Below, piece after piece: positions 49,495-64,000 of a stretch of DNA of 64,000 nt. Made by a program: the position numbers and the translations under genes. Origin of the DNA: Thiogranum sp. (GTDB taxonomy: Bacteria; Pseudomonadota; Gammaproteobacteria; DSM-19610); assembly GCA_030148915.1 (NCBI GenBank), contig JASBSN010000043.1, positions 1-64,000 on the forward strand, given 5' to 3'. Below the pieces are notes generated by a model that searched no databases, was not told the origin of the DNA, and worked only from the letters and a program-made list of their open reading frames with translations. Numbering within the stretch: the stretch's first letter is position 1; the number at the start of each line of letters is the position of its first letter.

Positions 49495-50199
49495 TCAGGG
49501 ATACTGGAACCAGGCTTCCCGGGTCGCCGGCGACAGCCCGTGGCTGGCACTGTCAGTACAGTGCGAAACCACCCTGATCAGAAAAGGTGTGCCTTCCTGA
49601 CCGGGCTCTCTGGGATCGGCAATCGCCGTGGGGACATTGGCGTGTCCTTCGTGTCCGGGCCGCGAAGTTGTCGTCATCTGAAACGGGTAGGCGCCGCGTA
49701 CCAGCGGAAAATCGAGCGTAGTCTTGAACTCGCCACGGCCGGATGCATCAGTGGTGAACGAGTTGATTGATGCGCTGGCCCCGGCGGGGTCCACCCACGG
49801 ACTGATCCCGTTCAGGGCGTCGAGGGCGGAGCCTGGCGCCAGCGGGGTTGCGCCGCCGCCGGTCAGAGGGCTGCCGGCGCTGTTCAAGCCGTTCTTGCCC
49901 TTGATGCGGACCCACACGGTGAACAGCGTGTCCGGCGCGGCGCCATTGACTTCGATCTCGACACGGCTTGCGTCGCCCTTCTGGCTGACTTCGAGCGTCG
50001 CGGTCGCGCCCTGCCAGCCGTTACCGCTGGGGTCCAGTGCGCAGTTGGCCTCGACGGTGTCGCCGCTACCACTGGCTGAGCCGGGGCCTCGCCGGCTCAT
50101 GTTGTCATCTATCACGCTGGAGCCGGCCAGTGCCATGGAAGAGGCCGCGCCCATTGTCAGCAGCGTAACGGCGAGTGTCGTCATTTTGAAATTGATCAT
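49495..50199 (-). CDS. Hypothetical secreted protein
   Basis: Signal peptide MINFKMTTLAVTLLTMGAASSMALA; beta-rich sequence with C-terminal SHCTDSASHGLSPATREAWFQYP; no family recognised. Confidence 0.7.
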   Translation of the reverse strand: MINFKMTTLAVTLLTMGAASSMALAGSSVIDDNMSRRGPGSASGSGDTVEANCALDPSGNGWQGATATLEVSQKGDASRVEIEVNGAAPDTLFTVWVRIKGKNGLNSAGSPLTGGGATPLAPGSALDALNGISPWVDPAGASASINSFTTDASGRGEFKTTLDFPLVRGAYPFQMTTTSRPGHEGHANVPTAIADPREPGQEGTPFLIRVVSHCTDSASHGLSPATREAWFQYP

Positions 50200-50311
50200 C
50201 GTTGCATACCCTCTACTTTTGTTTTGATAGTTAAACAAGTTATGCGCCCCCGGCGAACGGCCGCTGAACCGGTCAGGGCAAAGTCCACCGGGAGCATCTC
50301 CCAACAGCTAC

Positions 50312-51856
50312 TTACTGAACGAACGCTTCGTGAATGACCATCAGCATGCGCGGATCAACAAAGTCCGTGCCGCCGGTGACATTGTCGCGGCCGAGATAGG
50401 TGGCGATTGGCTGGGCGCAGCCACTATTGTCGGCGCCGGCGGCCTGATCACCGGTGCAGGTGCCGTCCTGGGCATCGGCGTCTTGCGGTGCGATCGAGTA
50501 TTCACCGACGCCGCCGCCCTGGACGAAGCAGCGCGCCGGGGGTACCGATCCGTGCTCCGTGCAGCCCGGGTTATACGCCGATGAGGCGATCAGCAGGGTC
50601 TCGACGTCACAGGCGGTACCCGCCGGGTTGCTGCCGTTTGCCGTCGGGCCACCGATATTGTCGCAGGCCACCGCGGACATACGGTTGGGGCGAATGCCGG
50701 CAATGACGTTCACGCCCGGGTCCAGACCGATGGTGCGCGAGGGGAAATCGTCGCCGAAATCGACCACGTCAACGCGCTGCCGGAACACGCTCGGGTTACA
50801 GCCACCCGGTGTGCCGGGAACTTCGCCGCGCAGACAATCGCGCGAACGCGCACGGTCGGTGACATAAATGGTACCGTCCTCGTCGTAACCCCAGGCGCGC
50901 AGCGAGTCACGGCGCGACGGGTCATCGAGCGGTTTGCCCGGGCGCAGGTCGATCCAGCGGCTGACGTGAGCGCGGTTCTTTTTATCGCCGAGCTCGAAGT
51001 GCTCGTCCAAATCATTAGAACCCACTCCTGCCACGTCGTCTTTAAGACCGCGTTTCCAGTCCACCATGGCGATGGCGGCGCCGTGGAACATGCTCAGCCC
51101 CATGCCTTCGCTGCTGAAGGCGATACCGGCGATACAGGTCCAACGGGGATCCTTGTTTTTTGGTTGACTGTATTCGTCGATCACCTGCATGGTTTCCTGG
51201 TCGATGACCAGCACCCGGCTGTTGGCATTGCGCTCGGCGGTCGTGTTGACGGGCGGGAAGTACTGATTGGCCTCCAGTCCGCCTTCAGGCGCCACATCGG
51301 AGTTGGAGGCGTTAAAGAAGTTCGCATCGCAGATGGCCTGCACCAGGTTACCGTTGGGCATCATCTGTGTTCCCAGCGGCCGCGGTACGGTGCCGCGCCC
51401 GGCGGGGCCGGTGGGATTACCGAGCAGCGGGCGGTAGGAGACGGTACGGATCGGCGTGCCGTCACGATGAAATTCGGTCAGCGCCTGCTGGCCGGCACTG
51501 GTGATGAAGGCGTGTCCGTTCAGACCGCCCGAGAGTACGCCGGTCGGTTTGAACGGACCCGGGCATTCCAGATTGCCGCTGCCATTTTCGCACACCGGGC
51601 CGTTGGGGTCCGCGGAGCCGCCAAAGGGATTACTTACCGTAATGCCGCGCGCGCCTGTGACGATACTGACTTCCAGCACCTGGCCGGGACCCTGCACGCC
51701 AAACGGAGCGTTCATGGCGTCCGCCATCATGAAATTGGCTTCCAGACAGGCCGGTTGGCCGACCTCATCCAGACCGTGAGCGGTGACGCCGCCGGCAACC
51801 ATGGCGAGACCCAGGCCGTAGGCCAGGCTCGTAAGTGGTTTTATTGTTGATTTCAT
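50312..51856 (-). CDS. Hypothetical secreted Cys-rich beta-propeller-like protein
   Basis: Signal peptide MKSTIKPLTSLAYGLGLAMVAGGVTAHG; repeats of GN.V..., VLVIDQETMQVIDEY; multiple Cys; no family recognised. Confidence 0.7.
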   Translation of the reverse strand: MKSTIKPLTSLAYGLGLAMVAGGVTAHGLDEVGQPACLEANFMMADAMNAPFGVQGPGQVLEVSIVTGARGITVSNPFGGSADPNGPVCENGSGNLECPGPFKPTGVLSGGLNGHAFITSAGQQALTEFHRDGTPIRTVSYRPLLGNPTGPAGRGTVPRPLGTQMMPNGNLVQAICDANFFNASNSDVAPEGGLEANQYFPPVNTTAERNANSRVLVIDQETMQVIDEYSQPKNKDPRWTCIAGIAFSSEGMGLSMFHGAAIAMVDWKRGLKDDVAGVGSNDLDEHFELGDKKNRAHVSRWIDLRPGKPLDDPSRRDSLRAWGYDEDGTIYVTDRARSRDCLRGEVPGTPGGCNPSVFRQRVDVVDFGDDFPSRTIGLDPGVNVIAGIRPNRMSAVACDNIGGPTANGSNPAGTACDVETLLIASSAYNPGCTEHGSVPPARCFVQGGGVGEYSIAPQDADAQDGTCTGDQAAGADNSGCAQPIATYLGRDNVTGGTDFVDPRMLMVIHEAFVQ

Positions 51857-52077
51857 CAGTGTTGAGCTCCTCACAATATTTAGTATTGGTAGAATGAGTG
51901 TTATGTAGCGAAGGCATGCGGCGCGCCTGAGCGGCCGCTGCTAAAGGTAGGGAGGCGCGAGCGGTGTAATTTATTCGAATTTACTTAGCATCTTAAGGCA
52001 CATAAAGACTGAATCTATGCCGCCGCCAGAGCGGCCCAATTTGAATAATGCCCGGACTGGCGCGTCTGAAGAAGAAT

Positions 52078-52629
52078 ATGAGTCTCTTAAATCAGATTTT
52101 CTCCCGCCGCGACCAGCGCAGGACAATCGCCGCTGACCGCGACCGCCTCTACCGCGTGGCGTTGTCCTGGTGCGGGGACCCCATGGTGGCCGACGACCTG
52201 GTTCAGGAGGCTCTGCTTATCGCCCTGCACAGCATCGATCAACTGCGGGACAGCCGCTGTCTGAGTGCCTGGATGTACCGAATTCTCAGCAACTGCTGGC
52301 ACCAGCACCTGCGCCAGCTGCGCCCGATGACTGACATCGATGACGCCAGCATCGTCAGCGACACAGACGCGGAATCCTGCTGTTGCGAACAACAAACCGT
52401 GGCCCGGGTCCGGGCCGCTATCTTGAAATTACCGCCCGGACAGCGCCAGACCTTGACGCTGGTCGATCTGGGCGGATTCTCTTATGCCGAAGTTGCCGAG
52501 GCATTGAATATTCCTATTGGTACGGTGATGAGTCGCCTGCATACGGCGCGCCGTTCGTTGCGGAGACTTTTGCTGGGTATCTGCGACTCGACGCCCGTGC
52601 CGGTGGCCCGGATAGGCGACCTGAAGTAA
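52078..52629 (+). CDS. ECF sigma-70 family factor (paralogue of 8886-9440)
   Basis: DRLYRVALSWCGDPMVADDLVQEALLIALHSIDQLRD and LPPGQRQTLTLVDLGGFSYAEVAEALNIPIGTVMSRLHTARR; near-identical motifs to the 8.9-kb ECF. Confidence 0.9.
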   Translation: MSLLNQIFSRRDQRRTIAADRDRLYRVALSWCGDPMVADDLVQEALLIALHSIDQLRDSRCLSAWMYRILSNCWHQHLRQLRPMTDIDDASIVSDTDAESCCCEQQTVARVRAAILKLPPGQRQTLTLVDLGGFSYAEVAEALNIPIGTVMSRLHTARRSLRRLLLGICDSTPVPVARIGDLK

Positions 52630-52916
52630 GGTATTCCGGCCTGCCCAGCGCCTTCTATCTGTGACTTAACGCACAGAAGACTCCGTATCACCGGACAAAT
52701 AACTCCGAAAGCTAAAAATATCGAATAAATCCGGCGTCTGAATACTCTCTCATCGGCGGGTTCGGATGGGACGGTTTGCGGCGGCCTGGATTAAATCCGC
52801 CGCTTTATCCGTCTTTCAGTGTGGGAGCTATTTTTCTCTAAATAATAAGTTCTGCAGAAAATAATAAACCTGCGACCGTACCGGTACGGAAAAAAATAAT
52901 GTTTAGGAGAGGAGCG

Positions 52917-53618
52917 ATGTTGAATGAGGTTCGACATACGGCAGGCGTAATAAACCATCAACAGACCTGGCTGAAGCAAATTCCCGGTCTACAGCATATT
53001 ACCGAGGATGTCTGGAAGGAGGCGTTGACCAAATCCGAAATTATTTCATTTCCCGCCGGCGCCAAATTGGTGCAGTGCGGCGACGCTGCAACCCATTTTG
53101 TGATTGTTCTGAAAGGCGTTGTCCGGGTGTTTCAGATCGCGGAAAGCGGCCGGGAGATTTGTCTTTATCGGGTGCGCAGGGGGCAGGTCTGCGTGCTGAC
53201 CTTGACCAAGCTGCTCACTACCCGGGATATTTTCGCCCAAGCGGTGGCTGACGAAGATGTGCGCATTCTGGCCATGCCTATTGACTATTTTCGGCGCCTA
53301 ATGGCCGAGTCCGAAGATTTCAGGCAGCATGTCATGTGCTCCATGGCCGATAGTTTTACCGAAGTGGTTCAACTGGTGGCCAATGTCAGTTTTCAGCGTC
53401 TGGAATTAAGGCTGGCGTGTTTGCTCGGAAAACTGGCTCAAGCGGAAACCTCCTGCACACTCAAAGTCACCCATCAGGAAGTCGCCAATGAATTGGGGAC
53501 TACGCGTGAAGTGGTCAGCAGGATATTGAAAGATTTCGAGAACATCGGTTGTATTAAGCTGCGCCGCGGCAGCATTGAAGTGCTGTCGGGCGAAACGCTG
53601 CAGGGGATCTCCGGTTAA
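52917..53618 (+). CDS. Crp/Fnr family transcriptional regulator
   Basis: Cyclic-nucleotide-like domain and C-terminal HTH TLKVTHQEVANELGTTREVVSRILKDFENIGCIKLRRGSIEVL. Confidence 0.92.
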   Translation: MLNEVRHTAGVINHQQTWLKQIPGLQHITEDVWKEALTKSEIISFPAGAKLVQCGDAATHFVIVLKGVVRVFQIAESGREICLYRVRRGQVCVLTLTKLLTTRDIFAQAVADEDVRILAMPIDYFRRLMAESEDFRQHVMCSMADSFTEVVQLVANVSFQRLELRLACLLGKLAQAETSCTLKVTHQEVANELGTTREVVSRILKDFENIGCIKLRRGSIEVLSGETLQGISG

Positions 53619-53679
53619 CCGAGCGGCACTGTCAAGCGAGTCGAAACACCACATACCGTGTTCGAGGCGGGCGCGTTCG

Positions 53680-54234
53680 ATGAGGGCGCCTCGCGTGTTG
53701 GCCCTGCTGCTGGCCGCGACGGTGCTCGCCTGTAGCGACCGGGCGCAGTATGACAACCACAGCGCAGCCTGTGATGCCGCACAACGACAGGGTCTTCTGG
53801 CGCTGGCCGTCAAGGCCTGTGGGCAGGCGGTGGTTGCGGCTGAGTCGGCTGGCTTGCCTGCGGCGACCAAATCCCAGGCGTTATACAGGCTTGGGCGGCT
53901 TAAACGACAGCAGGGAAAGTTTGTCCAAGCCGAGGCCCTGCTCAGCCGATCGCTTGGCGAAGAGGCGACGTTGGATACTGCGCAAATCGGTGATCGTCTG
54001 ATTGAATTGAGTTTAAGCCTCGCCGGCCAGGGGCGCTGGTCCGAGGGCGCGCTGATACTGCAGCGCTTGATAACCTTACTTGATAATCTCCCGGAAACAC
54101 CCCGCGCTGACACCGTCAATATTATTCACCGCTACCGTATACAGCTGAATAAAACCGGGCGCAGTGAGCTCGCGAGTCGCCTCGAAGCGGCGGCCGCAAA
54201 GCTAAAACAACCGCTGCCTGCAGATCGCAGCTGA
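53680..54234 (+). CDS. TPR-like lipoprotein, hypothetical
   Basis: Lipobox TVLAC; ALYRLGRLKRQQGKFVQAEALLSRSLGEE TPR-like helices. Confidence 0.7.
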   Translation: MRAPRVLALLLAATVLACSDRAQYDNHSAACDAAQRQGLLALAVKACGQAVVAAESAGLPAATKSQALYRLGRLKRQQGKFVQAEALLSRSLGEEATLDTAQIGDRLIELSLSLAGQGRWSEGALILQRLITLLDNLPETPRADTVNIIHRYRIQLNKTGRSELASRLEAAAAKLKQPLPADRS

Positions 54235-54283
54235 TGGGCGTTCGTCGGCGTTTGCGGTTTTATTCGCGCCCGGTACAACGCCC

Positions 54284-54310
54284 AAAAAAAACCGGCCTCT
54301 GAAAGGCCGG
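54284..54310 (-). terminator. Rho-independent terminator for the di-heme oxidoreductase gene
   Basis: Minus strand: ccggcctttcagaggccgg followed by a run of T (plus strand aaaaaaaaccggcctctgaaaggccgg). Confidence 0.85.
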
Positions 54311-54357
54311 CTAAATTAGGGCAGGTCGCCCTGAAACGGGCTTAACGCTGTTTGTGT

Positions 54358-55800
54358 TCAGTCCTCGTCATCCGGCGCCACCACCTGCAAGGTCTTAAGA
54401 AACTTCACCACAGCGATCTGATCTTGCGCGGCGCTGGCCAGAAACAGATCGCGGGCGCTGCGCGCTTCCCCGCCGTGGGCGAGTATCGCTTCGGCAATGG
54501 TGGTCAGATCCCCGCGGTGTCCATAGGGTGCCGAGTTACCCACGTCCCATAGTTTGCGCGTCAGGAAGAACTCGGTGCCGGGTTTACCGTCCTGGTCAGG
54601 ACGACCTTGCGCCAGGTGCTCATTGCAGAAGTGGCGCACCGGATCCGGGTCCGTAACCTCGTCGCACAGGTTATGGCGCTTGAGATCGGTGTAGGCGCGC
54701 ACGATCGCACCACCCTTTTTGCCTTTCTCCAACAACGGACCCTCGCCCTGTTTAGTCATGTCGAAGCGGTATTCGGGACAGACCGTGATATCGCTGCAAG
54801 TGCCCGGTGGATTAAAGGGGTTGGGTTCGACAAAGAAGCGGCTTTGCAGCTCTAACTTAGGTACATGGCAGGAGGTACAGCCGACGTCATCGAATACCTC
54901 TTCACCGCGCTGAACGCGTTCGCGCTCCTCTTGGCTTTTCGGCATAGCCCGCCCGGGTACCCCGAGCTGCGCTTGCCAGAGCGTATTGGCGGTGATGTCG
55001 CCGACGGTCAGTTCGCGCGCTACGCCGTCTTCGTCGAAATCCGGATCAAAGCCTTTTGCCGGGTTCATATCGAAGCGCTCTTCGGCCTGCATGCCGTGGT
55101 GGTGGTTCATCGCATTGGCGGTGAACTCGCGCAGAGAAATAACCACTCCGGCCTGGTGAAAGGGCTTGACGACCAGATCAGTATCGACGCCTCTACTCGC
55201 TGTGACGACCCCCCCGAGCTTGGTGATTTCAAAATTTATGCCCTTGGTGGTCAGCGTGTGCGCGCCGTCGGGTAAAGCGCCCGCCTGAGTCTGGAGGTCG
55301 ACGGTCATTTCACGCGACAGCATTTCAATCGCGCCCGACCCGTTCATGCCTAGGGTATTGCGCTCGTTGCTGAACTCAGGGGCCACCGAAAAATTAACCG
55401 GATCGGCCGCCTGTGCGAGCACGAAAACGCTGGTGACAATATCACCGGCGCCGCCGGCGCGCGGTTGCGCATGGCACCCGGCGCAGGAATTGGACTCCGG
55501 CGCCGAGGTGCGGATAAAGGCCGGTTCATCGGCTACCCGTTTATCTCCGGTACCGGTGGCGGAAGGGCGCCCCTGCCCGTCGCAGGTATTGAATCGTGCG
55601 ACGAACAACGCTTCGCCGGCATCGGTGATCTGCTTAAAACTCAACGCACCGCTGTTGATGTCGGTTTGATGGACGTGCCCGGACAACACCGGCGCGTCCG
55701 GAAAACCGGCCGCGCAAGTATGAATTTCGTGCGCCGTTGCCGCTATCGGCATCAGTGCCAACGCCAATACCACAGGAATGCTTGGATGAGTAGCTGTCAT
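54358..55800 (-). CDS. Di-heme oxidoreductase (DHOR/DUF1111 family, putative peroxidase-like c-type cytochrome)
   Basis: Two CxxCH motifs (CAGCH, CTSCH), KLWDVGNSAPYGHRGDLTTIAEAILAHGGEARSARD; signal peptide. Confidence 0.88.
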   Translation of the reverse strand: MTATHPSIPVVLALALMPIAATAHEIHTCAAGFPDAPVLSGHVHQTDINSGALSFKQITDAGEALFVARFNTCDGQGRPSATGTGDKRVADEPAFIRTSAPESNSCAGCHAQPRAGGAGDIVTSVFVLAQAADPVNFSVAPEFSNERNTLGMNGSGAIEMLSREMTVDLQTQAGALPDGAHTLTTKGINFEITKLGGVVTASRGVDTDLVVKPFHQAGVVISLREFTANAMNHHHGMQAEERFDMNPAKGFDPDFDEDGVARELTVGDITANTLWQAQLGVPGRAMPKSQEERERVQRGEEVFDDVGCTSCHVPKLELQSRFFVEPNPFNPPGTCSDITVCPEYRFDMTKQGEGPLLEKGKKGGAIVRAYTDLKRHNLCDEVTDPDPVRHFCNEHLAQGRPDQDGKPGTEFFLTRKLWDVGNSAPYGHRGDLTTIAEAILAHGGEARSARDLFLASAAQDQIAVVKFLKTLQVVAPDDED

Positions 55801-56305
55801 GTTTTTCTCCGCTCAGTGGAAGTCCCTTAACTGGAACTTGTTTCAGTGGTAAAAAATTCCGCTATTTTTTGGCAGACCGGAGCAGTCATGCCAATGGCGG
55901 GTTCCGCTTGTAGTTCGTATGGCGCGCAAGTTGGGTTTCGGGCGCATGGTTAGAATGACTCTTAGAGCAAATCTAAATTAAGCCTGGCAGACGTGTCTGT
56001 AATATTTGATACGCTTGCAAAGATTTATTCGGGATGACCTTCAAAAGCTCTGTCGCGCATGTAACACGGGCTTTGCACGGCGGACTACGGTGGATCGTTG
56101 GTAAACACCGCTGTTAAAACCATTGTGATAGTTGGTACACAAAAGAGTTTGTCTATAGCGCCAAGCAGCCGCGCACTGGTCACCAGTGGATAAGCGATTC
56201 ATGTCGATCTATCCCCATTGATTGCTGCGGGGGGCTGCAGATCAGGCGGTGGAGAGCCCGGTGCGGAAAAATGAATAATCCCGCCGGTATTGCTATCTAC
56301 ATAGG

Positions 56306-56344
56306 GTCGCCCCGTGGACGGAATCCTTCCGTCGCCGGGGCGAC
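56306..56344 (+). promoter_or_regulatory. Structured 5' leader stem-loop upstream of 56401 gene
   Basis: gtcgccccg-tg-gacggaa-tcc-ttccgtc-gc-cggggcgac: 9-bp stem, 2x2 internal loop, 7-bp stem, 3-nt loop. Confidence 0.75.
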
Positions 56345-56349
56345 GACGA

Positions 56350-56367
56350 GGCCGGTTTTTGCCGGCC
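56350..56367 (+). promoter_or_regulatory. Second leader hairpin upstream of 56401 gene
   Basis: ggccgg-tttttg-ccggcc. Confidence 0.7.
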
Positions 56368-56400
56368 TGATTTTACGTTCAGACTTGGAGGAGTAATCTA

Positions 56401-57663
56401 GTGAATGCAAAAGGAAAGCAGCAAGTGAGACCGGTGTTGACCGCGGCCGCCCTAGCCGGCGCCCTGGCCGCGGGCCTGAGCCTCGGTGTACTCGCCGACG
56501 GCAAAGAAAAGTCGGATGATCATGGCAGGTTCGACAATATCATTACCGCTGTTGTCGCGCCGCCCGTGGTCAGCAACGGTCAGATAGCCGGCGAGCCGAC
56601 CGAGCTTATCGCGGTCCTCAATGCCCCAGGTGCGCCTGACAATCTCGCCGCCGACCCCAACAACTTCGGTCATCAGATCCCGGCTGGCGGGCGTATGGAA
56701 GTGGAGGTCGGCGGGAGTATTGAACGTAACGGGGTCGATAACGATAAAGCCTTCGTGCCGGTTACCAGCAACGCATTTTTTGTTCTGGTCACCGGGTTGC
56801 CACAGATGCCGATTACCGCGGCGGCGGGTGATGGGGTGCAACACGGTAACTACCGCATTGTCGATGATGGCAACAAAATGATCACCGTAATCCCCAACGG
56901 TGGGAGCGGCGCCAATGGTCTGGAGCAGGCTCGGGCAAACCAGATTGGGTTCAAAGTCGTGCATATCCGTCCGCGACCCAATACCAACGCCGGGCCCGCG
57001 CCTTTTACCAACGGGCCGGAGGGCAGCAAGGGGACCTTGAAGATCCGTATTTTTGACGCCGCGGGAAAACTGATGGAAAAGGGTAAGGGAAAAATATACT
57101 TTCCCGCCGCGGTGGGAAGAGTGGTTGGCGCCACCAACGCCGGCCTGGCTACCGGTGCGCAAGGCAGCCCGGCGACGGTGACCGCTGAGCTTGTCGAATC
57201 AGTAACCTTTCAGCACATCGCGCCTGAGACGGTCCTGTCAAATACCGTGCGTAGCGGCTCTTTTTCTGCCGGCGCGCCTTACGCCCCGCGTTTTTTGCTG
57301 TTTGAAGAAAGAGCGGGTCAACCCGATTCGTTTATCCCCTTTAAAGGCATTGCCGCGGTGGGTTATGTCGTTGATGCGGAAAAACCCTGGAAAGCCGATC
57401 TGGTGGTGGACTCAAACGGCAATGGTGTAGCCGATGAGGACGACGAAGAAATCGGTGACATCGAGATACAGGGTCCGTCCAAGCAATCGCGCGGTACACT
57501 GATGGCGAATTCTTCACTCACCAGTTCCGGCGACGGCGTGAGCGGACCGAATGGCAGCATCTTGAATGTACCTGTGCAGGTTGGTGGGCAAAGCGGCGTT
57601 TATACCGTGGCGGTTTCCTTGGAGGACGGTAATCGCGCAACTACTATATTAGTAGTAGAATAA
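56401..57663 (+). CDS. Hypothetical secreted protein of unknown family
   Basis: GTG start after GGAGGA; signal peptide VLTAAALAGALAAGLSLGVLADG; beta-rich, C-terminal Ig-like feel (VPVQVGGQSGVYTVAVSLEDGNRATTILVVE). Confidence 0.75.
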   Translation: MNAKGKQQVRPVLTAAALAGALAAGLSLGVLADGKEKSDDHGRFDNIITAVVAPPVVSNGQIAGEPTELIAVLNAPGAPDNLAADPNNFGHQIPAGGRMEVEVGGSIERNGVDNDKAFVPVTSNAFFVLVTGLPQMPITAAAGDGVQHGNYRIVDDGNKMITVIPNGGSGANGLEQARANQIGFKVVHIRPRPNTNAGPAPFTNGPEGSKGTLKIRIFDAAGKLMEKGKGKIYFPAAVGRVVGATNAGLATGAQGSPATVTAELVESVTFQHIAPETVLSNTVRSGSFSAGAPYAPRFLLFEERAGQPDSFIPFKGIAAVGYVVDAEKPWKADLVVDSNGNGVADEDDEEIGDIEIQGPSKQSRGTLMANSSLTSSGDGVSGPNGSILNVPVQVGGQSGVYTVAVSLEDGNRATTILVVE

Positions 57664-57682
57664 GCAAAGCACGTTATGACCT

Positions 57683-57711
57683 GGGCCCGCTTTTAAAGCG
57701 GGCCTTTTTTT
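57683..57711 (+). terminator. Rho-independent terminator
   Basis: ggcccgctttt-aaagcgggccttttttt immediately after the 56401-57663 stop. Confidence 0.95.
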
Positions 57712-57928
57712 GTATCTACTATCACAATCGTTTTATAAGACTGGATTATTTTCGTCTCGGGTAACCTGGGTTACATACCTGTTCGCCAATCTGTTTCATT
57801 ATGCGCGGCAACAAAAGCGACAAATCGGCAGCGCCGACATTTGTCCAGGAGGTTGGAGTGGCAGGTTCGGGTGTGAGCGTTACCCAGGCTCACCAGAAAA
57901 ACACAATTACCTAGGAGCTGGAGGGAAA

Positions 57929-59614
57929 ATGGCTAAAAGAAGAGACGTGCTCAAAGCAGGGGCGATGGCGGTGGCCAGCACACCTGCAATTTTTGGCGGA
58001 GTTGCATTGCCGCGCGCGGCGCAGGCGCAACTGTGTCGCCCGGAAGGCATTCGCAGTCCGCTGACAGAACCGGACAGTCCTCCGGTGACGCCCTACACCA
58101 CACCGGTGTACATTCCTCCGGCGATGACACCGGTCGATCCGGCGACGCTCGCGCCTCCTCCGGACCCCAACCGTCATCAGCGCTTCGACGAGTTCACGCC
58201 CGCCAAGCACTACGTGCAGCATATGACCGAGGGTCTGTGGAATTATCACCCGCAACTCTCGGCGCTGAACCCACTTGGCTTCGGCTCGCTGGCCTGGTTG
58301 TTCAACGGTGCCACACCGGGTGAGCAACTGGTGGCGCGCTATGGCGAGCCCGTGTTCGTGCGTCGTTATAACGATTTGCCGATGACCGAAAATGCGCTGA
58401 TTCCCTTCGGACTGCCTTACACCACGATTCATCTGCACAATGCACACACAGCCTCGGAGAGCGACGGCTATCCCGAAGACTTCGTCGGCCCGGGCGAGTT
58501 CTGGGATCACCACTACGGTATGCTCTACGCGCGCAACGATCCGCGCGAGGCGCTGGGCAGCCTCTGGTATCACGATCACATGCTGGATTTCACCGCGACC
58601 AACGTCTACGCGGGCCTCTCGGCGATGTCGACGTTCTACGACGAGCTGGACTCCGGTGACGAGAATGATCCCAACCCGAACGCCTTGCGTTTGCCCGGCA
58701 CCTACGGCAAGTACGACCTTTCGTTCATTCTGCACGATGTGCGTTTCGACCAATTCGGTAACCCGTCCTACAATGTGTTTGATACCGACGGTCATCTCGG
58801 CGATCTGATTACGGTAAACCGAAAAGTATCTCCTTACCTGGATGTGGAGCCGCGTAAATACCGCTTACGTTTTTACGACGGCGGGCCATCGCGCTTCTAC
58901 GAACTGGGGTTGAGCGATAACGCCGAGATGTTCGTCATCGCCAACGATGGCAATCTGCTCGAGGAGCCGGTCAGCGTAACCAGTATTGTTCTCGGACCGG
59001 CCAACCGGCACGACGTGATTATCGACTTTTCGCGTTATCGCCCCGGGGAGAGCGTCAACCTGGTCAACCTGATGGAGCAGATCAACGGCCAGGGCCCGAC
59101 CGGGCGCCGTCTGGAGGGCCCGGATCGTATGCCGGTGATGCAGTTCCGCATCAAAAATCTGCAAGGCCCGGATAACAGCCGCATTCCCGACTTTATGCGT
59201 GAGTTGCCGCCCGTTAATCTCGATGAAGTGGTCGCAGAGCGCGAATGGATATTTGACCACGACATGGGGTTGTGGACCGTCAATCATGAATTCATGGATC
59301 CGACCAAGATTTCCGCCGCACCCAAGCAGGGCACCGCGGAAATCTGGACATTCCGCAACGCCGGCAGCTCCTGGGCTCATCCGGTACACGTTCACTTCGA
59401 GGAATTCCAGGTACTGGAATGGAACGGCCGACCGCCGACCGGGGTACTTCGCTCGCGCAAGGACGTCGCCACGTTGGGGCCGAACGATTCAGCACGTGTG
59501 TTTTACCGCTTTGACGACTTTCTGGGTCGTTACGTCATTCACTGCCATAACAACGTCCACGAAGACAACGCCATGATGGCGCGTTGGGACATTATACCCA
59601 ACGGTGGTAGCTGA
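57929..59614 (+). CDS. Tat-exported multicopper oxidase
   Basis: Twin-Arg MAKRRDVLKAGAMAVASTPAIFGG; Cu motifs HLHNAH, WYHDHM, HPVHVH, HCHNNVHEDNAMM; RBS GGAGCTGGAGG. Confidence 0.93.
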   Translation: MAKRRDVLKAGAMAVASTPAIFGGVALPRAAQAQLCRPEGIRSPLTEPDSPPVTPYTTPVYIPPAMTPVDPATLAPPPDPNRHQRFDEFTPAKHYVQHMTEGLWNYHPQLSALNPLGFGSLAWLFNGATPGEQLVARYGEPVFVRRYNDLPMTENALIPFGLPYTTIHLHNAHTASESDGYPEDFVGPGEFWDHHYGMLYARNDPREALGSLWYHDHMLDFTATNVYAGLSAMSTFYDELDSGDENDPNPNALRLPGTYGKYDLSFILHDVRFDQFGNPSYNVFDTDGHLGDLITVNRKVSPYLDVEPRKYRLRFYDGGPSRFYELGLSDNAEMFVIANDGNLLEEPVSVTSIVLGPANRHDVIIDFSRYRPGESVNLVNLMEQINGQGPTGRRLEGPDRMPVMQFRIKNLQGPDNSRIPDFMRELPPVNLDEVVAEREWIFDHDMGLWTVNHEFMDPTKISAAPKQGTAEIWTFRNAGSSWAHPVHVHFEEFQVLEWNGRPPTGVLRSRKDVATLGPNDSARVFYRFDDFLGRYVIHCHNNVHEDNAMMARWDIIPNGGS

Positions 59615-59670
59615 AGCGGCGCGGCAGAGAACCCTGAGTCGGTGCACATGATCGGAATTCCAAGGAGTCT

Positions 59671-60306
59671 ATGATGAAGAAAAGCACAAGAAGAATGTTT
59701 TTGGCAGGAGCTGCCGCGGCCGTGCCGGCGGCGGTGACCGCTGCCATGGCGCCCGGGGTGGTAAAAGACAACCCGGCGTTCAAGACCTGTCCGCGCGCCC
59801 GGGGCGGCAAGAACGCCGGCCGTTTTCCCCAGGTCATCGTGCAGGACCAGCACAACCGCAAAAACTGGTTCTACGAGGACCTGATTGCCGACAAGCTGGT
59901 GCTGGTGAGTTTCACTTCGGTGAAAGGTGAGCAGTACTATCCGTTGCTCAGCAACCTGGTCAAGGTGCACGAAATGATCGCCGATCGGGTCGGCAAAGAT
60001 GTACAGATGTACACCGTCACCACCGATCCCCACCACGACACTCCGGATGCGCTGCGCGCGCTGGCCGAAAAACACGGCGCCAAGTGGCGTTTTCTGACCG
60101 GCGCTCCCGAGGACATTCGGGAAATTCTGGCCTCTTTCAACGCCCGCGGCAGTCTCTATGCCCTGTCTTGGATCGGCAACGAAAGGACCGGCCGCTGGAT
60201 GAATAAGCCGAGTCGGCTGCAGCCGCTGTACATCGCCGAAGCCGTGGCGCGTCTCAGTACGGGTAAGCAGCACAAGCCGTTCCTGGTGGACATGCACAGC
60301 GTCTGA
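59671..60306 (+). CDS. SCO1/SenC-like thioredoxin-fold protein, Tat-exported, lacking CxxxC
   Basis: STRRMFLAGAAAAVPAAVTA Tat-like signal; LVLVSFTSVKGEQYYPLLSNLVKVHE...MYTVTTDPHHDTPDALRALAEKHGAKWRFLTG aligns with SCO proteins. Confidence 0.8.
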   Translation: MMKKSTRRMFLAGAAAAVPAAVTAAMAPGVVKDNPAFKTCPRARGGKNAGRFPQVIVQDQHNRKNWFYEDLIADKLVLVSFTSVKGEQYYPLLSNLVKVHEMIADRVGKDVQMYTVTTDPHHDTPDALRALAEKHGAKWRFLTGAPEDIREILASFNARGSLYALSWIGNERTGRWMNKPSRLQPLYIAEAVARLSTGKQHKPFLVDMHSV

Positions 60307-60410
60307 CACCCAGCGTTCCCGCGGGAACTGAGCTGGTGGTACACACACAATATTCCCCTGTGGCGCCTAGGCGAACACCGCCGTGCCGCCGGGGAGGAGG
60401 TGAAAAAACA

Positions 60411-62348
60411 ATGAAGCAGCAAAGACCATTTGTTGAAGTGCGCATCGCAGCGGCGTTCAGTTTACTCTGCGCGGGCCTCGGGGCGAGCAGTACCGTCTGG
60501 GCGGGGTGTGAAATGACTTTCGATCCTATGACCGGTATGACCGGCATGATGGGTCACCCCTGTACACAGCCGCGCCCCGGACCGTCGGTGCAGACTGTGT
60601 CGGCTGACGGCATTACCACTTTTGTTGTTACTCCGGAAGGCCACTTCCCGCCCCAGGATCCGTTCGCCGAGCCGCCGGGGAGTAACTTCTTGATGACCGT
60701 CTACGAAAATCTCCGCGATTTCAACGGCGACGAAATGCCCAACACGCTGCCTTCGTCGCCCGACAACCCCTATAATCTGCACGACGGACCGGTGTTGACT
60801 GAGTCGATCAATCCGACAAACCCGGAAGACGATCTGGACAGAATCATCGACAAGATCGAAAAAGTCGCGCGAAAAGGCAAGAAAAAGGTAAAAGAAGATT
60901 TAATCGAACGAGCGATAGATATCCTCGAAGGTAACCCGATCAAGGGGCGCGCCTACAGCGGTTTTCCGCTGTTGCACTACAACGGGCCGAACAAAGTCAA
61001 AACCGTGGAGCCTGTGTTTGACGCCGACGGAAATGTCATCGGCGGCAACGTCGATGTGAATATGATCTACTTCAATCAGCACATCGAGAGCGATACGGCG
61101 TTTGTCGACCCCAGCGCTGTACTGGAAGTCCCGTGGACTGTGACCTACCACGTCAACATTCTCAACCGCGGCATGGAAGATTTCTCGCCGATGGTGATGA
61201 ACTTCGACCGCGTCGGGCCCAACCGCGGTCCCTTCCACGCTTCGATGGACCAGAGCTATTTTCCGATGCTCAACGAGGGTACACGCTATACGGTCAAAAT
61301 TAAGGAGAATAAGGGCAAGTACTTCAACTTGGTCTATACCTGGGGCTGGCGCCTGCATCCGCCACGGGTGCAGGTTATGGAAAATGCGTTGAAGAAGGCC
61401 GGGCCACTCGAATGGACACTACCGCAGTGGGAGAAGTCCGCCTTTTGTGCCGATGGCGCAACTGATGACAATTGCGACCCTGTCGGCGACAAGGCGCATA
61501 AAGAATACGCTATTTCACGCATCGGCGATCTGTCGCCCGCCAAGCGTATGTGGAACATTTTCAAATCTCTGGAAGAGGACGATCACGACGACCATAGCGC
61601 GTCCTCGCTGACGCAGATCGCCGTCGACCTGCGCCAGGCGTTCCTCGACTGGACGGACCGCACGCATCTGCCCGCCGGTGTCGTGGCCGATCCGAATGCC
61701 ACAGTGACGTTGTTGTACGTTAACAATACCCTCTATGGCAGCCGTCAGGGTCTGCAGGGCGAAGGCAGCGGTCAAGGTCCGGCCAGTTACAAAGGTATCG
61801 CCAACGGCAGCGCGCATGAATGGAATATTCGTCCGTACGACTATCAGGTTACCTTATACAACGGCGACCACTTCCCGCACGGCTACATGAACGTGGACTT
61901 CGGCGGCTCTCGGGGCTGGGAAAACCATTTTCAGTTCACCGATCCGACCACGCTGGTCGGCCCGCACCCGGTAGTTCCCGCCGGTCACCCGGCCGAAGAG
62001 GACCCCTTCAATAACCCAGCCAACACCGTCGCTGGTCACGACAACGTGTTTCCGATCAATCGTGGCGGGGCGGAGGAGTACCTACAACCGTCGCCACGCA
62101 ATCTGCTCGACCCGGACAACGGGCCGCCGCAGTTGGGATCGGGCTGCTTTTTCACTTTCGGGCGCAACCACGCCTGGCCTAACGCCGGCGGACCTTGGGG
62201 CGGTATCGTAGTGGCGCCAGTGGCGGCGGACGGCACGCCGGGTATGCACAAAGTGGATATCACCTATAACTTTGAGCCCAGTCGTCGTCTGCGGATTTAT
62301 CAGTTCGATCCGTTGCACCATGACGTGGCAATTTATTCGCTGCACTAG
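60411..62348 (+). CDS. Large secreted protein of unknown family with Met-rich N terminus
   Basis: Signal peptide; CEMTFDPMTGMTGMMGHPC near the mature N terminus; no family recognised. Confidence 0.75.
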   Translation: MKQQRPFVEVRIAAAFSLLCAGLGASSTVWAGCEMTFDPMTGMTGMMGHPCTQPRPGPSVQTVSADGITTFVVTPEGHFPPQDPFAEPPGSNFLMTVYENLRDFNGDEMPNTLPSSPDNPYNLHDGPVLTESINPTNPEDDLDRIIDKIEKVARKGKKKVKEDLIERAIDILEGNPIKGRAYSGFPLLHYNGPNKVKTVEPVFDADGNVIGGNVDVNMIYFNQHIESDTAFVDPSAVLEVPWTVTYHVNILNRGMEDFSPMVMNFDRVGPNRGPFHASMDQSYFPMLNEGTRYTVKIKENKGKYFNLVYTWGWRLHPPRVQVMENALKKAGPLEWTLPQWEKSAFCADGATDDNCDPVGDKAHKEYAISRIGDLSPAKRMWNIFKSLEEDDHDDHSASSLTQIAVDLRQAFLDWTDRTHLPAGVVADPNATVTLLYVNNTLYGSRQGLQGEGSGQGPASYKGIANGSAHEWNIRPYDYQVTLYNGDHFPHGYMNVDFGGSRGWENHFQFTDPTTLVGPHPVVPAGHPAEEDPFNNPANTVAGHDNVFPINRGGAEEYLQPSPRNLLDPDNGPPQLGSGCFFTFGRNHAWPNAGGPWGGIVVAPVAADGTPGMHKVDITYNFEPSRRLRIYQFDPLHHDVAIYSLH

Positions 62349-62374
62349 CGGCGCGTTTTCAGGAGTGAGCGGAC

Positions 62375-62400
62375 GCCCTTCCCGAGTACTCGGGAAGGGC
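62375..62400. terminator. Perfect 26-bp palindrome, possible terminator or processing hairpin
   Basis: gcccttcccgagtactcgggaagggc after the 62348 stop; weak downstream T content. Confidence 0.6.
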
Positions 62401-62596
62401 CTCTGCGTTTAAGATGTTTCGCAGGAGGCCGTACTGGTAGACCAAGCCCCAGATGGGGCGAGGTAGCCAAAAGTTTCGGATGGTTGCTTGAGTGTCCGCT
62501 GAACGAACCGAAAGTAAGGGGCCGCACAGCTCCGAGTGCTACTGCGCTGGCCAGCGGTTGGTGAGAGAGCGGTCGTGCCGGCTCGTAAGGGTCTTG

Positions 62597-63478
62597 ATGC
62601 TGGCGTTGGTTGTTGGCGGTCTGACGGCCGGAAAAACCTTTGCCCAAGCTCAGCAGAGGTGCAGTCTGGTGACCCAAAATAAGCCGGTACACCCGCCCGG
62701 CTTAGCGGTAACCGGTCGTGCGGTGCCGACGCAGCGCTATGAGATCGTGGCGCGGTTTCCACATGCCCGCAATGCGTTCACTCAAGGGCTTGCATTTTAT
62801 CAGGGCGCACTCTACGAGAGTACGGGCCTACGTGGCCACTCCAGTGTCCGCAGGCTCGATGTGCAGTCCGGGCGGGTCCTCGCCTCACGGCGTTTAGACC
62901 AGGGTCTGTTCGGGGAAGGGCTGGCCGTATCGGGCCAATACCTTATTCAGCTGACCTGGCAGGCCGGTAAGGCATTTATTTACGCCGCCGCCGATCTGCG
63001 CCAGACAGGCGGCTTCGCGTTCGACGGCGAGGGGTGGGGCGGAACCGTTATCGCTGAACGGTTGGTGATCAGCGACGGGTCGGCACGATTGAGATTTATT
63101 GACATGCAAACGCATCGCCAAGTCGCCACCCTGCAAGTGACCGATAGCGGGCGTCCCGTACAAGGACTGAACGAACTTGAAACAGTCGACGGATTGATTT
63201 TCGCCAATGTTTATCCGACTGACTGCATCGCACAGATCGAGCCGCGCACCGGCGAGGTTGTTGCTTGGATTGATCTCGACGGGTTGCTGCCGGCGGCACA
63301 GCGCGCTAACGGCGCGGCACTCGCCAACGGCATCGCTTATCACCCACAAAGCAAAGCGCTGTTTGTGACGGGGAAGCTCTGGCCCTACCTCTATCAACTT
63401 AGGCTGAGCCAAACCAATAGGCTTGCTGATAAGCCGTTCGCTTATTCCGCTACCACCGGTTGGCGGGCGCCAAGATGA
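62597..63478 (+). CDS. Glutaminyl-peptide cyclotransferase (bacterial beta-propeller type)
   Basis: RFPHARNAFTQGLAFYQGALYESTGLRGHSSVRRLDVQSGRVL and LNELETVDGLIFANVYPTDCIAQIEPRTGEVVAWIDLDGL. Confidence 0.88.
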   Translation: MLALVVGGLTAGKTFAQAQQRCSLVTQNKPVHPPGLAVTGRAVPTQRYEIVARFPHARNAFTQGLAFYQGALYESTGLRGHSSVRRLDVQSGRVLASRRLDQGLFGEGLAVSGQYLIQLTWQAGKAFIYAAADLRQTGGFAFDGEGWGGTVIAERLVISDGSARLRFIDMQTHRQVATLQVTDSGRPVQGLNELETVDGLIFANVYPTDCIAQIEPRTGEVVAWIDLDGLLPAAQRANGAALANGIAYHPQSKALFVTGKLWPYLYQLRLSQTNRLADKPFAYSATTGWRAPR

Positions 63479-63497
63479 CAAACGGAGAATAACTATA

Positions 63498-64000
63498 ATG
63501 TCGAAATCACTCGTTGTTACAGCCGCGATCGCGGCGTTTCTGGGTTACCTGGCCGCCCAATGGCCGACGCAGGAGAGCGCCGGGCCCGCCCCGCACAACG
63601 GCGCCCAGATCCTGGAGCCGGTGGCGACGGGCCCCGCGCAATCGCATTACGTCTGCCCGATGCACGCCGAAATCGTCAGCGGCGTGGCGGGTAGCTGCCC
63701 GATTTGCGGCATGCACCTGGTCGAGCGGCAGATCGATCAGAAGGCGGGCGCAGAAGAGGGTTTTCCGGTCGTCACCGTCGCGCCGTCGGTAATGCACAAC
63801 CTCGGCGTGCGTACCGCCACCGCGGTCTACGGCGACTTGCAGCGCAGTATCGAGACGATCGGAAAAATCACCCGCGTCGACCCGATGGCGCGGCGCACGA
63901 TCACGCCGCCCATCCGCGGCGAGCTGGTCGCCATCGCCGACAAGCACGACGGCGATTTCATTACCCGTGGAGAGTTACTGTTCAGCGTCAAGTCCGACGA
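63498..64000 (+). CDS. CusB-type efflux RND periplasmic adaptor with N-terminal heavy-metal-binding domain (truncated by window end)
   Basis: YVCPMHAEIVSGVAGSCPICGMHLV heavy-metal-binding domain followed by HlyD/CusB-like PPIRGELVAIADKHDGDFITRGELLFSV. Confidence 0.85.
   Translation, partial: MSKSLVVTAAIAAFLGYLAAQWPTQESAGPAPHNGAQILEPVATGPAQSHYVCPMHAEIVSGVAGSCPICGMHLVERQIDQKAGAEEGFPVVTVAPSVMHNLGVRTATAVYGDLQRSIETIGKITRVDPMARRTITPPIRGELVAIADKHDGDFITRGELLFSVKSD

Follow-up and report, generated by a model that had tools for sequence, protein, structure and literature searches.

A multicopper oxidase cassette with an unclassified constant partner protein in Thiogranum: a candidate exported metal-oxidising system

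The stretch of DNA analysed here, referred to as the window, comprises 64,000 nucleotides of Thiogranum sp. (assembly GCA_030148915.1, positions 1 to 64,000 of contig JASBSN010000043.1) and is part of a contig of 82,760 bases (C106) in a genome of 3.2 Mb. Its end holds the first part of a cassette built around a multicopper oxidase (MCO) and a large exported protein of unclassified family, here named J. The cassette is one operon of nine genes, all on the + strand with no strand switch, which runs from 57929 to approximately contig position 69720, beyond the window end, in the order MCO, SCO-like protein without its cysteine ligands, J, glutaminyl-cyclase-like propeller, CusB, CusA, DsbA-like protein, small secreted protein and cytochrome c. 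An earlier note, made from the letters of the window alone, had described an MCO and an SCO-like protein exported by twin-arginine translocation (Tat), J, a propeller and a CusB-type adaptor as consecutive genes, and this order is confirmed. The limits it had given to the unit, 49495 to 64000, were found to be wrong at both ends: the unit starts at 57929 and, beyond the window, takes in four further genes, from CusA to cytochrome c.

The MCO (57929-59614, 561 amino acids) carries a Tat signal (KRRDVLK) and the Pfam domains Cu-oxidase_2 and Cu-oxidase_3. It is of the bilirubin-oxidase/CotA type, its closest solved structures in the PDB being bilirubin oxidase (E=1e-55) and CotA (E=2e-45). The motifs that supply the ligands of the four coppers (HxH, HxH, HxxHxH and HCHxxxHxxxxM) are invariant in 15/15 aligned orthologues, that of the window included. 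The following gene (59671-60306) encodes a SCO1/SenC-like protein (PF02630, E=1e-10), also with a Tat signal, and the twin-arginine motifs of both proteins are conserved. As the earlier note had stated, this SCO-like protein lacks the cysteine ligands: in the alignment, the CxxxC copper ligands are missing from every orthologue examined, most of which have one other cysteine near the mature N terminus.

J (60411-62348) is an exported protein of 645 amino acids with no match in Pfam, NCBIfam or PDB sequences, in agreement with its earlier description as a member of no recognised family. Its description as methionine-rich was not borne out, as methionine makes up 2.8% of the protein in the window and 1.8-3.3% among homologues, and the methionine-rich part is a short N-terminal stretch that many orthologues do not have. 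The 22 J sequences compared, of which one is the most distant homologue, share 55 invariant positions, with H124, H316, H637 and H645 among them.

Downstream of J, a glutaminyl-peptide cyclotransferase-like beta-propeller (62492-63478; PF05096, E=4e-82) appears to be an optional member, and tblastn found no propeller in the Nitrosomonas loci or in locus L008. The CusB-type adaptor, with a heavy-metal-binding domain (PF19335, E=3e-12), starts at 63498, reaches the window end at 64000 and continues to contig position 64913, the full open reading frame being present in the contig extension. The remaining members lie outside the window: CusA (64923-68057), the DsbA-like protein (68054-68725), whose gene overlaps that of CusA by four bases, the small secreted protein (68832-69305) and a mono-haem cytochrome c (69307-69720), after which, past 69720, comes a sensor/GGDEF gene. 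The methionine triad which binds Cu(I)/Ag(I) in CusA (E. coli M573, M623 and M672) is kept in 11/11 sequences and the heavy-metal-binding motif of CusB in 9/14. All orthologues checked have CPHC in the DsbA-like protein and one CxxCH in the cytochrome c. Neither CusC nor CusF was recognised among the open reading frames between 57929 and 72697.

The cassette recurs in distant hosts. Orthologues of J with 47-71% identity were found in 8 public loci, among them records titled Thiohalobacter, Nitrosomonas and Methylovulum, and the gene order of the cassette is shared by Thiohalobacter-type genomes, Nitrosomonas, Methylovulum and one further gammaproteobacterium. In tblastn comparisons MCO, Cys-less SCO and J are neighbours on every contig of sufficient length. 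CusB and CusA come next and then, in most loci, the DsbA-like protein, the small secreted protein and the cytochrome c. The earlier note had proposed that the family of J should be sought beside the MCO, and this co-occurrence was observed: among 398 genomes of the phylum three carry J, and the close MCO subclade occurs in these three and no others. The family set of the window contains nine J-bearing genomes, its own included, in seven of which the MCO and J genes are adjacent; in the remaining two (G010 and G012) J is at or near a contig end. J is rare, being present in 9/120 genomes of the Nitrosomonas family, 1/250 in another family and 5/360 in a sample of the class, and most of the carriers that have a name in the records belong to genera that oxidise sulfur, ammonia or methane. 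No match to J was found on plasmids or viral contigs, and no description of the cassette was found in the literature searched. In locus L008 (2547-11869) MCO, Cys-less SCO and J are duplicated in tandem, with CusBA after the second copy only. A protein of about 810 amino acids with closely alike N-terminal sequence is encoded in two relatives (L004, 14516-16930, and L027, 17198-19654); its gene follows the cassette in one of them, and in the other it separates CusA from the DsbA-like gene.

A second form of the cassette was found in five loci (L036, L062, L063, L067 and L077). It is composed of an MCO 46-50% identical to that of the window, a Cys-less SCO, a J with 39-42% identity and a further SCO gene, which has CxxxC in those checked; no CusBA homologue was found in these loci. 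Four of them (L036, L062, L063 and L077) encode an extra protein with an N-terminal cytochrome c domain, homologous over its full length among the four, and the one of L036 also matches Peripla_BP_6. A more distant J homologue of 736 amino acids (23-31% identity) is encoded in a Nitrosomonas-family genome (L068, 1590-8559; genus label shared with the Nitrosomonas loci), on the same strand as and 58 bp after an MCO of 1559 amino acids that matches MnxG of the PDB (E=8.5e-109). No MnxG-like MCO was found in the genomes searched around G111, a group taken as a possible Pseudomonas. MnxG-like genes occur on Streptomyces and Rubrobacter plasmids, and a tblastn search with the distant J homologue matched nothing on plasmids.

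Several described systems share parts with these cassettes; for the partner sets of the mnxG, mofA and ompB clusters the likeness was judged at the level of domain names. The putative mnxG operon of Pseudomonas putida GB-1 includes a propeller, two SCO1/SenC genes and a substrate-binding protein of ABC type with a cytochrome c domain (PMC11409713). Similarly, He et al. reported MofC-like proteins, which combine cytochrome c and periplasmic-binding domains, and SCO genes beside homologues of mofA and ompB (PMC5566968). The second form resembles the mnxG operon in its two SCO-type genes and its cytochrome c/periplasmic-binding protein, and it shares with mofABC of Leptothrix and ompB of Geobacter an exported MCO, a SCO1/SenC gene and a MofC-like protein. 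The window operon has in common with mnxG a SCO1/SenC-like gene and a c-type cytochrome gene, but its MCO is of another type, CusBA, a DsbA-like protein and a small cytochrome c take the place of a canonical SCO and a MofC-like protein, and no J-like gene is listed for mnxG. MofA and OmpB are likewise different MCOs, with neither a J-like protein nor a Cys-less SCO described beside them. The mof operon of Rubrivivax A210 includes an unknown exported protein (PMC8218464). The window MCO belongs to the sequence family of bilirubin oxidase and CotA and has their ligand motifs; unlike them, it is Tat-exported in a Gram-negative host and has a fixed operon and a partner, J. For CotA of Bacillus pumilus, Mn-oxidase activity is reported (PMC3618234).

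On these grounds the cassette may be read as a system in which an exported MCO oxidises a metal, Mn(II) or Fe(II) being the most likely substrate, with a copper-handling module of its own and J as constant partner. This reading is drawn from sequence comparison, and we give it an even chance. Mn(II) specifically is proposed more tentatively. A metal is assigned because of the partner genes common to the mnxG, mofABC and ompB clusters and of the one J homologue beside an MnxG-like oxidase. In such a system, CusBA and the DsbA-like protein would provide copper and thiol management for the loading of the oxidase, while the Cys-less SCO would serve as a holding or docking protein and not as a copper carrier. 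J, which probably has a cupredoxin-like domain, would form a complex with the MCO and act in it as a structural subunit or as one that faces the substrate. The MCO itself would take electrons from a metal ion, of which Mn(II) and Fe(II) are the likeliest, and pass them to O2, with the cytochrome c as a possible further acceptor. The earlier proposal of an extracytoplasmic system oxidising metals or organic compounds with its own copper supply fits the downstream cassette, given the MCO ligands, the CusA triad, the synteny and the partner genes, and does not extend to the upstream half of the region. A wider version, which we regard as doubtful, is that J represents a new family acting as the constant second subunit of both CotA-like and MnxG-like metal-oxidising MCOs, and that the cassette gives sulfur-, ammonia- and methane-oxidisers an undescribed cytochrome c-coupled pathway of Mn(II)/Fe(II) oxidation. 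If the metal-oxidising reading is right, a large uncharacterised family would join the short list of parts working with metal-oxidising MCOs, and such a system would be present in chemolithotrophs and methanotrophs, in which Mn or Fe oxidation is seldom sought. J, with its invariant residues, offers a precise marker for further carriers and a direct knock-out target.

Several observations weigh against the metal-oxidising reading. The window MCO, at only 561 amino acids, is not a giant oxidase of MnxG type (>1200 amino acids), and the adjacency of J and an MnxG-like MCO was seen in one genome only. Canonical SCO and MofC-like proteins are absent from the window form of the cassette (type A), and therefore the link with metal-redox clusters runs via the second form. 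Profile comparison of J with the MCO and with MnxG-like proteins gave no signal, in a test without power, as the cassette MCO compared with MnxG-like MCOs gave none either. The structural evidence on J has similar limits. An AlphaFold2 model built from 10 sequences has a mean predicted local distance difference test (pLDDT) score of 57, and its leading Foldseek and VIA matches are cupredoxins of many kinds, over approximately residues 190-327; the best of them reaches Z 7.2, below the level that the tool itself rates as trustworthy. The C-terminal half, modelled separately, was uninformative (pLDDT 40). A putative cupredoxin-like domain in J is nevertheless considered likely. Finally, CusBA would fit plain copper resistance too.

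Because CusBA is in the operon, copper resistance is the main rival, although we consider it unlikely. The MCO would then be a CueO-like Cu(I) oxidase and CusBA would export copper, with J and the Cys-less SCO as periplasmic copper-binding helpers, which agrees with the intact methionine triad of CusA and with the metal-binding motif of CusB. The MCO does match the CueO profile, an NCBIfam equivalog, but at 164 bits it falls far short of the cut-off of 525, and its nearest solved relatives are bilirubin oxidase and CotA. CusBA of the cassette is of the same types as in the CusCFBA copper/silver efflux system, whereas CusC and CusF are missing from the operon and the pump sits inside the MCO-SCO-J cassette. 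Neither a cytochrome c nor a DsbA-like protein would be expected in a resistance operon. Resistance is further weakened by the second form, which keeps MCO, Cys-less SCO and J with a canonical SCO and a cytochrome c/periplasmic-binding protein, and in which the pump was not found.

That bilirubin oxidases are the nearest solved relatives speaks in turn for an oxidase of organic substrates, a secreted laccase- or bilirubin-oxidase-like enzyme whose substrates would be phenols, humics or a small molecule made by the cell itself, and whose binding partner would be J. The export of the proteins and the glutaminyl-cyclase-like propeller of some lineages are compatible with this, but the partner genes that the second form carries are of the kinds seen in metal-redox clusters and the named carriers are mostly sulfur-, ammonia- and methane-oxidising genera, so that we hold it to be less likely again than resistance. 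The same carriers include ammonia and methane oxidisers, whose copper needs are large, and the SCO, DsbA and CusBA proteins are of copper- or thiol-handling types; the MCO/J pair could accordingly store or oxidise copper for delivery to a cuproenzyme encoded elsewhere, such as a monooxygenase or a terminal oxidase. This seems improbable, as the MCO retains its full catalytic ligands, the distribution is patchy even within the Nitrosomonas family and no monooxygenase gene was recognised in the loci read.

Upstream of the cassette, the window holds, as the earlier note had described, an extracytoplasmic function (ECF) sigma factor, a Crp/Fnr regulator, a di-haem oxidoreductase and three secreted-looking proteins that have no Pfam family. 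Their membership in the unit was ruled out by a terminator and, for two of the genes, by the location of the orthologues in relatives. The strong terminator-like hairpin (57683-57705, + strand; 10-pair stem with 7 GC pairs, then TTTTTT) closes the gene at 56401 and sets the cassette apart; a weak Rfam match to Trp_leader (57602-57711), under the gathering score, spans it. The di-haem oxidoreductase (PF06537, 54358-55800) is transcribed away from the cassette. Of the upstream genes, only a Crp-like one was found at homologous cassette loci, and only at some of them. G008 is a one-contig genome with the cassette at 1.47 Mb; the orthologue of the di-haem oxidoreductase lies there at 0.73 Mb and that of the 56401 protein at 2.90 Mb, distances of 0.7-1.4 Mb. 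Relatives of both genes are likewise away from the cassette in G004, and the two genes therefore lie outside the unit. Independent scattering of orthologues, which the earlier note would have counted against its grouping, thus applies to the two upstream genes tested and not to MCO, SCO, J and CusBA. In G004 the orthologues of the two genes adjoin each other, and they may form a separate unit. In G008 the 56401-protein orthologue appears as two matches with an internal TGA (C1:2899293-2900321), and is probably a disrupted gene.

With respect to regulation, a Crp/Fnr-type gene is close to the cassette in L004, L006, L027 and L077 and, judging from this proximity, may regulate it. No sigma-54 or Fnr-type site was found 5' of the MCO in the window, and L035 gave one marginal match of each kind. 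No Rfam riboswitch reached the gathering score, the window giving weak sub-threshold matches only. A short hairpin, CTTTCC...GGAAAG, followed by a T run stands directly before the ribosome-binding site of the MCO in five Nitrosomonas-family loci (L035, L062, L063, L065 and L067) which include both forms of the cassette; it has no Rfam match at the gathering score and is a possible attenuator.

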